A DNA stretch of 64,000 bases. It comes from Burkholderiaceae bacterium (GTDB lineage: Bacteria > Pseudomonadota > Gammaproteobacteria > Burkholderiales > Burkholderiaceae_B). Location: assembly GCA_030158305.1 (NCBI GenBank), contig JAOATE010000079.1, positions 1 to 64,000 on the forward strand. The letters are read 5' to 3'. The notes below the pieces were generated by a model. The model had not been told where the DNA came from. It ran no database searches and saw nothing but the letters and a program-made list of their open reading frames with translations. Position numbers and translations under genes: made by a program. Below are positions 9,191 to 13,069 of the stretch, one piece after another. Within the stretch, counting starts at the first letter, position 1, and each line of letters begins with the position of its first letter.

Positions 9191-9937
9191 CTAGCGTCTC
9201 AGCACGACCTCTCTGAGCACTTGGTGTGCCCGTGCCCCGAGCTCTGCTCGGGCAGGTGCCGGCAATCCGTCCGGCACCCAGATAGGCGCTAAAAATTCCA
9301 CCTCTATACGAATACCTTTTCCGCCAAGCACTTTCCAAAGATTTTGCATCAGATTTTCATCACCGACAAAGGCAGCGAAATCACTGCGTTTGTCATGATG
9401 AAAAAATAACAGGGCAACGGGTTGTATTGGCACGTTTGCACGCCGGGCAGGCTCGAACAGGTTGGCATAAAAAGGCAACAAATCGTAACCTTGAGATGTC
9501 GTTCCCTCGGGAAATAGTCCGACCACCTGACCTAACTCAAATTTTTCCTGCATGGCACGACTGACTTGTTGCACAGCATGTCGGGAAGCGCGCTCAATAA
9601 AAATAGTATCCGCGCCGGCCACTAACCAGCCCAACAAAGGCCAGCGACGAATTTCACTCTTTGCAATAAAGACAGCAGCGCGCACCTGATTGATCGCAAA
9701 AATATCGAGCCAAGATACATGATTGACGATCCAGAGCACCGGTCCTTCACGTAATGGTGCGCCTAAGTACGACACCCGCACGCCACAGCACCTCAACAAC
9801 GCACCAGACCAAGACCGTTTGATCTCTAATCGACTTTTATGTCCAGCCAACGGAAAAATCAACACCAGGGTCGAGAGTCCAACCAAGACCCATAACAATG
9901 CAAGGGTGGCTCTAAAGGCGAAGCGAAAAAAGTTCAT
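9191..9937 (-). CDS. plsC: 1-acyl-sn-glycerol-3-phosphate acyltransferase (PlsC family)
   Basis: Transfers an acyl chain to lysophosphatidic acid at the cytoplasmic membrane in phospholipid synthesis. The catalytic H(X)4D motif is NHVSWLD (His73, Asp78) and the acceptor motif FPEGT is at residues 142-146. One hydrophobic segment spans about residues 8-30. Length is 248 residues. I chose the ATG at 9937, which overlaps the stop of the preceding pyrC-like gene (ATGA), over an upstream start at 9952. It is the last gene of the rubredoxin-to-plsC operon. It could also prefer other lysophospholipids, as PlsC paralogues do. Confidence 0.9.
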   Translation of the reverse strand: MNFFRFAFRATLALLWVLVGLSTLVLIFPLAGHKSRLEIKRSWSGALLRCCGVRVSYLGAPLREGPVLWIVNHVSWLDIFAINQVRAAVFIAKSEIRRWPLLGWLVAGADTIFIERASRHAVQQVSRAMQEKFELGQVVGLFPEGTTSQGYDLLPFYANLFEPARRANVPIQPVALLFFHHDKRSDFAAFVGDENLMQNLWKVLGGKGIRIEVEFLAPIWVPDGLPAPARAELGARAHQVLREVVLRR

Positions 9938-11172
9938 CGAGAGCGATTCCAAACAAGCTCACCGCCCAACACAGTTGCTTGCACGCGACCCGGCAACTCT
10001 CTGCCTAAAAAGGGCGTGCCTCGACTTTGGCTGATGAGGTTTTCGCGAGTCACCAACCAATACTCTTCAGGATCTACGATGCACAGATCCGCAACAGCAC
10101 CCAAAGAGAGAGAGCCTGGTTGGGGGATAGACCCACTGTCAGCCAGCACTCGACCCGGACCACAAGTGACCAGTTTGAAAGCCTCACTCAAAGGCACCCG
10201 CGCATCTTGCGACCACTTGAGCATCAGTGAGAGCAACAACTCCAAGCCCATCGATCCCGGTACAGCACTGGCAAACGGTTGTTGTTTATCCTCATCCGTC
10301 AGTGAGGTGTGATCCGAACATACTGCATCAATCGTGCCATCCAATAATCCGAGTCGAATCGCATCGCGATCACGCTGACCACGCAAGGGCGGCTCGAGCC
10401 GGAAATGGCTGTCATAAAAGCCAATATCGATATCAGTGAGGTGCAAATGGTTTGCGCTCACGTCACAGGTGATCGGTCGCCCTTGTTTTTTAGCGGTGCG
10501 CACCATGTCAACGGCCTCGGCACTCGACAAGCGACAAAGATGCAGGCGCACACCAGTCGCGCGCTGTAACGAAAGCAACGTTTGACACGCAATCGTCTCA
10601 GCTTCTACCGGAATCCCCGCCAAACCTAGACGCGACGTATAGGCACCGCTCGCGGCCACCCCATCGCGCGCGAGCCATGGATCTTGCGGTCGACACCACA
10701 CGCCGTACTCAAATGTTTTGGCATATTGCATCGCGCGCAACAGGACTGCGGTATCTTGCACAGGCGTATCGCCTTGTGAAAATCCCACACAACCTGCTGC
10801 GGTCAGTCTTATCATTTCAGACAAAGCTTGCCCCTGCAAACCCTCCGTCAACGCACCCAAATGATAAACATTGACCTGAGGGCTGAGTAACGGCGCAGAG
10901 ACAGTCGTCACCTCTGGTGGCTGCACCACGCTTGTGACACCGCCGGCCAAAGCCGCATCCAAGGCATCGCCAGACGCACCCACGCGAGCGGACAAATCGA
11001 CCAAGCCGGGCAATACGATCATGCCAGAGGCATCAAACACTTTATCCGCGACAAAACCCTCTGGAGCCGTCCCCACAGCAACAATCCTGCCCTGCGCAAC
11101 ATAGACATCCGCCAGCGCATCGAGATGATTCGCAGGGTCGATCACACGCCCCTGTTGAATATGCAGTTTCAT
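9934..11172 (-). CDS. dihydroorotase-like protein lacking zinc ligands (PyrC'/PyrX type)
   Basis: Amidohydrolase-fold homologue of class I dihydroorotase, 412 residues. In active enzymes PGLVDxHxH binds zinc. Here residues 55-63 read PGLVDLSAR, so both histidines are missing. The following REPG block is reduced to GASG, and roughly a dozen residues normally present before the next helix are absent. CDVSANHLHL (236-245) and SDHTS (286-290) remain. Proteobacterial PyrC' proteins of this kind are non-catalytic partners of aspartate carbamoyltransferase. It overlaps the pyrB-like gene upstream and plsC downstream by four bases each. The unusual feature is that the PyrB partner here is also degenerate. 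Catalytic activity is unlikely. Confidence 0.85.
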   Translation of the reverse strand: MKLHIQQGRVIDPANHLDALADVYVAQGRIVAVGTAPEGFVADKVFDASGMIVLPGLVDLSARVGASGDALDAALAGGVTSVVQPPEVTTVSAPLLSPQVNVYHLGALTEGLQGQALSEMIRLTAAGCVGFSQGDTPVQDTAVLLRAMQYAKTFEYGVWCRPQDPWLARDGVAASGAYTSRLGLAGIPVEAETIACQTLLSLQRATGVRLHLCRLSSAEAVDMVRTAKKQGRPITCDVSANHLHLTDIDIGFYDSHFRLEPPLRGQRDRDAIRLGLLDGTIDAVCSDHTSLTDEDKQQPFASAVPGSMGLELLLSLMLKWSQDARVPLSEAFKLVTCGPGRVLADSGSIPQPGSLSLGAVADLCIVDPEEYWLVTRENLISQSRGTPFLGRELPGRVQATVLGGELVWNRSR

Positions 11173-12056
11173 ACCAACGCACCCGCAACAAGACTCAGCG
11201 CCGCCATGCGCACTGCGATACTCGCAACTCCGCTCGCCTTCCTTGAACCCTCAGTTCCGAGCACTAAGCAATCAGGTTTCGCGCATGCCAGTTTTTCTTC
11301 TGTGAGGCCATAACATTCAACATATTCGCGCGCCGAAGGTATATAGGTTGAATCTATTCCAGTCCGCTCTTGATCCAGCATGATGACGACGTCAGCGTCT
11401 CGCAAGCCGTCGGCCAGATGCGTGTAAGCGCGCACACCGAATTGCGCAAGACCCTCAGGCAATAAAGTCAAAGGCGCGACGACACGCACTTCGGCGACAC
11501 ACAGCGTGGTGAGTGCATGAATACAGGAGCGCGCATGACGCGAGTGCAACACATCGCCCACCAACACGACAGTGAGATTGGAAAAATCATTTTTTGCGCA
11601 ACGAATGGTGTACATATCCAGTAAGGCAGACGTTGGATCTGCATGACAGCCATCCCCCGCATTCACAACATGCGTGTGAGCACCGATCTGCTGTACGATA
11701 AAAAATGGCACACCGCTCGCCTCGGTCCGTAATAGGACGATATCGATATGACGCTCACTGAACGAAGAGATTGTGGAGAGATCCAACTTTTGGATTCCCA
11801 ACCATTCAGCGGACAAACTCTGAGCCGCGGATTCAAATACCCCAACATCGGTTGACGCCTTATCAACAAAGATGTCGTCAATAAGGCTCAGTATCTTTTT
11901 GTCTTGCAGAAGCGGTGTTTTTTTGAGTACACCCTCTGCCGGCGCAAGAAACAATGCAGTCGTGTCGAGGATGCGCGTCAAAATCGCGCGCGACAGTCCT
12001 TCGGTCGTGAGCAGATGTGTCAGCTCGCCGCGTTGGTTTAGTTGAGGATTGCGCAT
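11169..12056 (-). CDS. degenerate aspartate carbamoyltransferase homologue (probable pseudoenzyme)
   Basis: The chain is clearly PyrB-like: MRNPQLNQRGELTHLL at the start, VVNAGDG, FSNLTVVLVGD, HSRHARS (171-177) and IAVRMAAL at the end. The catalytic motifs are lost. The carbamoyl-phosphate loop FENSTRTR is replaced by IDDIFVDKA (59-67). The mobile KGES loop is deleted near 95-100. HPTQ has become DPTS (140-143). The RLQxER segment is cut to DQER, and HPGPxNRG is replaced by GTEGSRK. The length of 295 is about 25 short. The frame is open throughout, and no other frame restores the lost loop. It sits in the normal pyrB position, but with only 22 bases to ruvX, so no pyrR lies between them. It is either a scaffold or a remnant. 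Confidence 0.85.
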   Translation of the reverse strand: MRNPQLNQRGELTHLLTTEGLSRAILTRILDTTALFLAPAEGVLKKTPLLQDKKILSLIDDIFVDKASTDVGVFESAAQSLSAEWLGIQKLDLSTISSFSERHIDIVLLRTEASGVPFFIVQQIGAHTHVVNAGDGCHADPTSALLDMYTIRCAKNDFSNLTVVLVGDVLHSRHARSCIHALTTLCVAEVRVVAPLTLLPEGLAQFGVRAYTHLADGLRDADVVIMLDQERTGIDSTYIPSAREYVECYGLTEEKLACAKPDCLVLGTEGSRKASGVASIAVRMAALSLVAGALV

Positions 12057-12078: not shown

Positions 12079-12471
12079 TTAAGTCAGCGCATCAAAATAG
12101 CGCTGCAAAATGATAGCCGCAGCCACCGCATCATCGGGCTCATTTCCCGTGATTTTTTGGGCCTGGACGCTCGACCCCCGCTCATCGACCAACACGACGG
12201 GTAAACCAAACCTCCCCTCGAGCTGACGTGCAAAACGTCGGCAGTGCTGACTCGCGTATTGTTCGCTGCCATCCGTCGCGAGCGCCAACCCGACCACGAG
12301 TCTTTCAGGCTGCCAACGTTTGAGCAGGGCCTCGACTCGCGCAAAACGACCGTCGCGAGTAGGCTCCAAAATAATGTCCAGCGGTTGCGCCTGTTTGAGC
12401 AAGGTATTGCCTAAGGCAACACCGAGCTTTTTAGCACCGTAATCAAATGCCAGAAGCGTTTCTTCAGGCAT
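12079..12471 (-). CDS. ruvX: putative pre-16S rRNA nuclease / Holliday junction resolvase-like YqgF
   Basis: RNase H-fold protein of the YqgF/RuvX family, implicated in 5' maturation of 16S rRNA. The first acidic motif LLAFDYGAKKLGVALGN is at residues 5-21, with RLVVGLALATDG and LVDERGSSVQA further on, and the C-terminal DDAVAAAIILQRYF supplies the last acidic residues. It is 130 residues, typical of the family. I chose the ATG at 12471; an in-frame GTG at 12483 is possible. It overlaps the end of yqgE by 8 bases and is cotranscribed with it. Confidence 0.92.
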   Translation of the reverse strand: MPEETLLAFDYGAKKLGVALGNTLLKQAQPLDIILEPTRDGRFARVEALLKRWQPERLVVGLALATDGSEQYASQHCRRFARQLEGRFGLPVVLVDERGSSVQAQKITGNEPDDAVAAAIILQRYFDALT

Positions 12472-13069
12472 GGCCCGCCACACCGGTCAGCATCACTGGG
12501 TCGATTCCCAACAGTTTGAGCGCGGCGGGATAACGATCTTGTGGCGGCGTATCAAAAATAATATTTTCTTGCGCTGCGACGGTTAGCCAAGCATTTTGCG
12601 CGAGCTCATTTTCGAGTTGGCCTGCTCCCCAACCCGCATAACCCAGCGTCACAAACAACTGCTCGGGACCGTTTCCGTGGGCTACGGCCTCCAATACGTC
12701 TCGAGAGGTGGTCAACGCTAAGCGCCCCAGCTTGATACTTGAGCTGTAATCACCCGCGGGAAAATGCAAGACAAACCCACGATCAGTCTGGACTGGGCCG
12801 CCAAAAAAGACTGCAGGGCTGTGCGCGACTGGTTGCTCCGCACTCTGCCCGGGCGCAATCTCAAGCTTAAGGTCGATTTTTTCAAGCAAACCGGCCACAC
12901 TGAGGTCCGTCGGCCGGTTAATCACCAAACCTAACGCGCCTTTTGAGCTGTGCTCGCACAAGTAAATGACGGTTCCAGCGAGATCCCCAGACACCATACC
13001 CGGCATGGCCATCAGAAACTGATTGGACAGGTCGGTCACGGTCTCGGGTGTGCGTTGGGATTGCTCCAT
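12464..13069 (-). CDS. YqgE/AlgH family protein (DUF179)
   Basis: Conserved cytoplasmic protein of the UPF0301 family, 201 residues. The family start LSNQFLMAMPGMVSGDLAGTV is near residue 15, with GALGLVINRP and FFGGPVQTDRGFVLH following. The biochemical role is not established; AlgH was linked genetically to alginate expression in Pseudomonas. The gene lies 9 bases after the rubredoxin gene and overlaps ruvX, and the yqgE-yqgF pairing is common in proteobacteria. Confidence 0.93.
   Translation of the reverse strand: MEQSQRTPETVTDLSNQFLMAMPGMVSGDLAGTVIYLCEHSSKGALGLVINRPTDLSVAGLLEKIDLKLEIAPGQSAEQPVAHSPAVFFGGPVQTDRGFVLHFPAGDYSSSIKLGRLALTTSRDVLEAVAHGNGPEQLFVTLGYAGWGAGQLENELAQNAWLTVAAQENIIFDTPPQDRYPAALKLLGIDPVMLTGVAGHA

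Follow-up and report, generated by a model that had tools for sequence, protein, structure and literature searches.

In the window, a 64,000-nucleotide stretch of a Burkholderiaceae bacterium genome (GCA_030158305.1, contig JAOATE010000079.1, positions 1 to 64,000), the gene for the aspartate carbamoyltransferase (ATCase) chain PyrB has lost its active-site motifs and is maintained under purifying selection together with the gene for its partner PyrC', and the same state recurs in other lineages of the family, in genomes that also carry a motif-complete second ATCase. These marks of selection on an inactive pair in several bacterial groups suggest a non-enzymatic job, and the best explanation, considered moderately probable, is that a class A2 ATCase assembly in which both chains are dead has been retained for a structural or sensing role.

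Loss of catalytic motifs from PyrB

The features of the locus are as follows, with the names ruvX, yqgE and plsC being our presumptive assignments for the neighbouring genes.

9191..9952 (-): plsC-like acyltransferase, overlapping the end of pyrC'
9934..11172 (-): PyrC', pseudo-dihydroorotase of 412 aa, metal-site positions replaced
11169..12056 (-): dead PyrB, transcarbamoylase homologue of 295 aa without active-site motifs, ATG start, no internal stop
11258..11259 (-): junction of PyrB residues 266/267, HPGPMNR deleted, another deletion further downstream
11358..11375 (-): RLQNER slot, now DQERTG, residues 228-233
11484..11531 (-): kept segment RSCIHALTTLCVAEVR, residues 176-191
11628..11639 (-): HPTQ slot, now DPTS, residues 140-143
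11786..11787 (-): junction of residues 90/91, mobile SSAAKGE loop deleted
11847..11858 (-): carbamoyl-phosphate loop slot, STRT to ASTD, residues 67-70
11967..12056 (-): N-terminal segment, residues 1-30, the first 20 being the best-kept block across degenerate groups
12079..12483 (-): ruvX, separated from the dead pyrB by 22 bases
12464..13069 (-): yqgE, upstream in the cluster

The first-pass annotation had described a PyrB homologue with five catalytic motifs replaced or deleted and with its reading frame and operon position kept. The open 295-aa frame and its four-base overlap with pyrC' bear out the second part of this description, and alignment to canonical PyrBs of the same genus, which carry STRTR, SSAAKGE, HPTQ, RLQNER and HPGPMNR, bears out the first for all five motifs, with STRTR, HPTQ and RLQNER replaced and SSAAKGE and HPGPMNR deleted. 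The ancestral residue is present at only 2 of 14 catalytic positions (numbering and roles presumed from the E. coli enzyme), leaving the window protein without the active site of a PyrB. Scoring of 72 PyrB rows in this way gave two classes with none in between, all 32 canonical rows having 14/14 and all 40 degenerate rows 0-6/14. Two other genomes of the genus have degenerate copies, 68% and 67% identical to the window PyrB, lying in the same cluster of genes, and degenerate PyrBs of other clades have lost these motifs as well. A simple sequencing error or frameshift, against which the first-pass annotation had also argued, is thus unlikely and was rejected.

Homology to PyrB is retained, with a match to NF002032 over residues 14-266 (E 1.4e-48) at 165.6 bits, which is below the curated equivalog cut-off of 263. 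The Pfam carbamoyl-phosphate domain OTCace_N was matched at 33.4 bits (cut-off 29.9), and there was no match to the aspartate-binding domain OTCace at E 0.01. The AlphaFold model of the window PyrB is moderate (mean pLDDT 68.6, pTM 0.65; other models 47-57), and a Foldseek search with it returned ATCases as best matches (E 2.1e-15, TM 0.62), although this likeness is weak support because the input alignment consisted mostly of canonical PyrB.

Conservation was compared across six degenerate groups, with G108, G042 and G007 excluded. In canonical-chain numbering, the best-kept 20-residue blocks are residues 1-20 and 181-200. Catalytic positions were not significantly under-represented among those retained in at least five of the six groups (1/14 against 50/188 other positions, p = 0.20), but were over-represented among those retained in no more than one group (12/14 against 80/188, p = 0.002).

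A second aspartate carbamoyltransferase in the genome

Three transcarbamoylase loci were found in the window genome, namely ArgF, the window PyrB and a PRK11891-type (NF008853) ATCase on contig C66 (741.5 bits, cut-off 560), along with a separate type-II dihydroorotase on contig C42. Unlike the window PyrB of the same genome, the PRK11891 ATCase is motif-complete (STRTR, HPSQ, RIQKER, HPLPR), is 420 aa long and has an N-terminal extension, of approximately 76 aa in the copy at L002 1261-2523. The first-pass annotation had advised a search for a second pyrB with STRTR and HPGP, and would have abandoned its reading had the window gene been the only carbamoyltransferase of a uracil prototroph; as the PRK11891-type enzyme is present, with STRTR and with HPLPR, that objection does not apply. 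Its suggestion of a protein decaying after a second pyrB took over is upheld as regards the second ATCase, but decay alone is contradicted by the purifying selection described below. The PRK11891 ATCase of degenerate-PyrB genomes could take over the reaction, on the assumption that its intact motifs reflect activity.

Within the window's genus, PRK11891 exceeded the cut-off in 6 of 32 genomes, the same six that carry a degenerate PyrB, with the other 26 scoring 14/14. Where PyrB is canonical in this genus, pyrR lies between ruvX and pyrB, a slot from which it is absent in the window, and a genome-wide search found pyrR in exactly the 26 genomes with canonical PyrB. There was no pyrR beside any of 40 fetched degenerate loci, the search being genome-wide in the window's genus and at the locus elsewhere. 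Identity between the PRK11891 gene of G003 and those of the window's clade is 82.6-84.6%, and when the neighbourhood of this gene in G000 was compared with the G003 stretch, the PRK11891 gene alone was matched.

Distribution across the family

The family survey comprised 229 genomes, each at least 90% complete, with the counts made by hand. Canonical PyrB was present in 73 (in G076 and G168 as pieces only) and PRK11891 in 159 at E <= 1e-100, 157 of them over the cut-off. The two occurred together in four genomes, so that only 4 of the 73 with canonical PyrB have PRK11891, and a single genome had neither. Degenerate PyrB was present in 56 genomes (window's genus 5, g2 41, g8 8, g39 2), in all of which PRK11891 was found; its status was checked motif by motif in 39, and in the other 17, all g2, was assigned by low identity (41-49%, 161-223 bits, where whole canonical copies score 499 bits or more). 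When the 100 genomes counted as lacking PyrB were searched again at E <= 0.001, the only PyrB-like matches were of the kinds taken as PRK11891 (32-36% identity; short in G238) or ornithine carbamoyltransferase (23-31%).

PyrC' followed PyrB closely. At E <= 1e-55, a threshold at which weaker remnants would be missed, it was detected in 128 of the 229 genomes, comprising 73/73 with canonical PyrB, 55/56 with degenerate PyrB and 0/100 without PyrB; the single exception among the degenerate genomes, G042, is cut by a contig end.

The 40 fetched degenerate loci included G017 of the window's genus (genus 6, g2 24, g8 8, g39 2). Five all-degenerate clades were counted on a tree of hemL, yqgE and ruvX (support values not given), a number that depends on loss being irreversible and on the intact PyrB of G109 (g8) being inherited, and that otherwise falls to three. 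G003 was placed beside G018, G012 and G021 in one tree (0.98, then 0.54 inside), from which G007, G020 and G022 were excluded, and as basal within the genus in the hemL, yqgE and ruvX tree, and was apart from the window's clade in both (1.00 in the first).

A number of individual loci were also recorded. G109 (L144, 3194-5403, reverse strand) is an apparent intermediate: it combines a 14/14 PyrB with PRK11891, its locus yielded no pyrR, and the match to PyrC', with a frame of 391 aa, is interrupted by a stop. G203 (L146, 4671-5690, reverse strand) has an intact PyrB, a PyrC' approximately 11 kb away and PRK11891, again with no pyrR found at the locus. In G007, a 65% complete genome, a canonical 14/14 PyrB (L087, 4330-5223, reverse strand) has a TAG within the match, leaving a 297-aa frame, and in G076 (g3; C1:1069494-1070440) canonical PyrB lies in two overlapping pieces, which suggests that the frame is broken, and PRK11891 was not matched. 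G003 (L083, 9698-10681, forward strand) has a PyrC' with a large internal deletion and an open frame, adjoining the most divergent degenerate PyrB of the window's genus; in G004 and G031 it is the degenerate PyrB that has large deletions, located in its N-terminal domain. Frank decay was seen in a single fetched degenerate pair, that of G108 (L142, 4521-6425, forward strand), where both PyrB and PyrC' are broken.

Purifying selection on degenerate PyrB

Comparison of dN/dS across relatives, as the first-pass annotation had proposed, indicated purifying selection in all three clades tested. Values for degenerate PyrB were 0.15-0.26 in the window's clade (median 0.179, 8/10 pairs usable), with a median of 0.258 and maximum of 0.663 in g2 (22 genomes, 231/231 pairs usable) and a median of 0.283 and maximum of 0.499 in g8 (5 genomes, 10/10 pairs usable); dS was saturated in many pairs, and neither pairs nor genomes are phylogenetically independent. 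These samples were 22 of the 24 fetched g2 genomes, 5 of 8 g8 genomes and, for live PyrB, 24 of 26 genomes, in which the median was 0.019 (155/276 pairs usable), making the constraint on degenerate PyrB approximately tenfold weaker than that on live PyrB. Live PyrB of six sister genomes gave 0.01-0.05, and neighbouring genes in the window's clade gave 0.02-0.05 (yqgE, ruvX, thiD, hemL) or 0.05-0.14 (thiE, plsC).

Neutral simulations were matched in composition and dS and were run both with and without stops allowed. Observed dN/dS in 11 pairs (0.155-0.337) was reached by none of 189-200 simulations in any of the 11, whether stops were allowed or forbidden. An open frame by chance was separately rejected for the window's clade, none of 300 neutral runs (from G000 and G004, GC3 0.53-0.61) being open at 0.40 substitutions per site; in the GC-rich g2 and g8 the same simulation left 77, 15 and 89 of 300 open at 0.33-0.35 and is a much weaker test, so that selection there rests on dN/dS. 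The window PyrB thus shows neither the frame disruption nor the dN/dS near 1 of a pseudogene, and combines lost catalytic residues with persisting selection at the protein level, as in a maintained pseudoenzyme.

Inactive PyrC' as the more conserved partner of dead PyrB

Five of the six metal-site positions of the A. aeolicus dihydroorotase are replaced in the window PyrC' (S61, R63, G134, R161, R214), with D287 kept, and the locus therefore has the adjacent pyrC' without metal ligands that characterises class A2. The first metal-site histidine pair was retained in 0/31 live-PyrB and 0/39 dead-PyrB rows, and arginine occupied three histidine positions in 32, 35 and 36 of the 39 dead-PyrB rows. 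Arginines at these three positions were seen in most fetched loci, whether PyrB was live or dead.

The slower-changing partner is PyrB in live genomes and PyrC' in dead ones, dN of PyrB exceeding that of PyrC' in 216 of 217 dead pairs (210 from g2) against 1 of 231 live pairs, in a comparison confined to clean-start genomes (window's clade 4/5, g2 21/22, g8 2/5, giving a single pair, and live 22/22). Across 38 dead genomes, 90% conservation was reached at 125 of 412 positions in PyrC' and 50 of 295 in PyrB.

Possible explanations for retention

The simplest account of these observations would be that the mutual dependence of PyrB and PyrC' outlasted catalysis by PyrB. The catalytic chain of a class A2 ATCase (PyrB with inactive PyrC') would have lost catalysis where a PRK11891-type enzyme was present. 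Dead PyrB has nonetheless been preserved at the protein level along with PyrC', which lacks its metal site even in live-PyrB genomes. The two most likely still form a complex, in which dead PyrB may now mainly stabilise PyrC', and the assembly may have a structural or ligand-sensing role. The scaffold or regulatory pseudoenzyme proposed in the first pass fits both the selection and the co-retention with PyrC', from which we infer the binding of the two chains and a function for their assembly.

The alternative of a slowly decaying relic, left after replacement by PRK11891 and constrained only by avoidance of harmful misfolding, appears unlikely, although it would accommodate the broken genes of G108, the large deletions in PyrB of G004 and G031 and in PyrC' of G003, and the 100 of 229 genomes with neither gene. 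Against it, the dN/dS values lie far under the neutral simulations, a copy is present in 41/41 g2 genomes (in G042 only up to the contig end), and the frame is open in 38/40 fetched degenerate copies, the exceptions being G108 and G042.

Less likely still is regulation or anchoring of the PRK11891 ATCase by dead PyrB, alone or jointly with PyrC', as could be supposed from the presence of that enzyme in every degenerate-PyrB genome of the survey; 99 genomes have PRK11891 without PyrB or PyrC', which indicates that the enzyme does not need them and that whatever job the pair performs is dispensable in the family.

Retention of the frame merely so that translation runs through pyrB and pyrC' to plsC is very improbable. 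It could be supposed from the gene overlaps in the window and from the position of plsC after pyrC' at almost every fetched locus (it was not found alongside in G013, G024, G042 and G203), but neutral simulations in which stops were forbidden gave a median dN/dS of 0.81-1.22 against the 0.155-0.337 observed, and specific PyrB segments are retained across groups. A new catalytic activity on another substrate is similarly hard to credit: R105 is retained in 5/6 degenerate groups and an acidic residue replaces H134 in many degenerate PyrBs, but the protein no longer has its HPGP segment, its mobile loop or its carbamoyl-phosphate loop, and the residues newly common to degenerate clades (5 PyrB and 7 PyrC' positions) are few and mostly conservative or also present in live genomes, and were set aside as evidence.

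Returning to the retained class A2 assembly, ligand sensing through an arginine-rich pocket of PyrC' is a matter of speculation. A more specific version is considered doubtful: a complex of two dead enzymes, arisen repeatedly, would sense an anionic metabolite through a conserved PyrC' with arginine at three metal-site histidine positions, while dead PyrB would serve as the platform for its assembly. If true, a metabolic enzyme would have turned wholly into a non-catalytic regulator. Such proteins carry homology to PyrB and dihydroorotase and may be mistaken for pyrimidine enzymes, although neither should catalyse. The repeated loss of the active site beside a second ATCase, with both chains under selection, amounts to a natural experiment on the non-catalytic roles of class A2 ATCase. 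A literature search confined to titles and abstract openings, and largely outside subscription journals, turned up no bacterial PyrB described as catalytically dead.

Comparison with known systems

A pair of this kind is found in the class A2 ATCase of Pseudomonas (PMC7053772), which likewise joins an ATCase chain to an inactive homologue of dihydroorotase. In P. aeruginosa, PyrB alone is monomeric and inactive and depends on PyrC' for assembly into its active form, and the complex melts approximately 30 degrees higher than its far less stable parts (PMC7053772); the ATCase chain is active there, whereas both window chains are without active sites. By sequence, the nearest solved structures to both window proteins are those of the class A1 ATCase-DHOase complex of Aquifex aeolicus (3d6n, 4bjh; PMC3880350), a complex whose two chains, unlike those of the window, are both active. 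Fungal CAD-like proteins (PMC4581275) resemble the window pair in retaining an inactive dihydroorotase with an ATCase, but in these the ATCase is active and the two are fused in one polypeptide.
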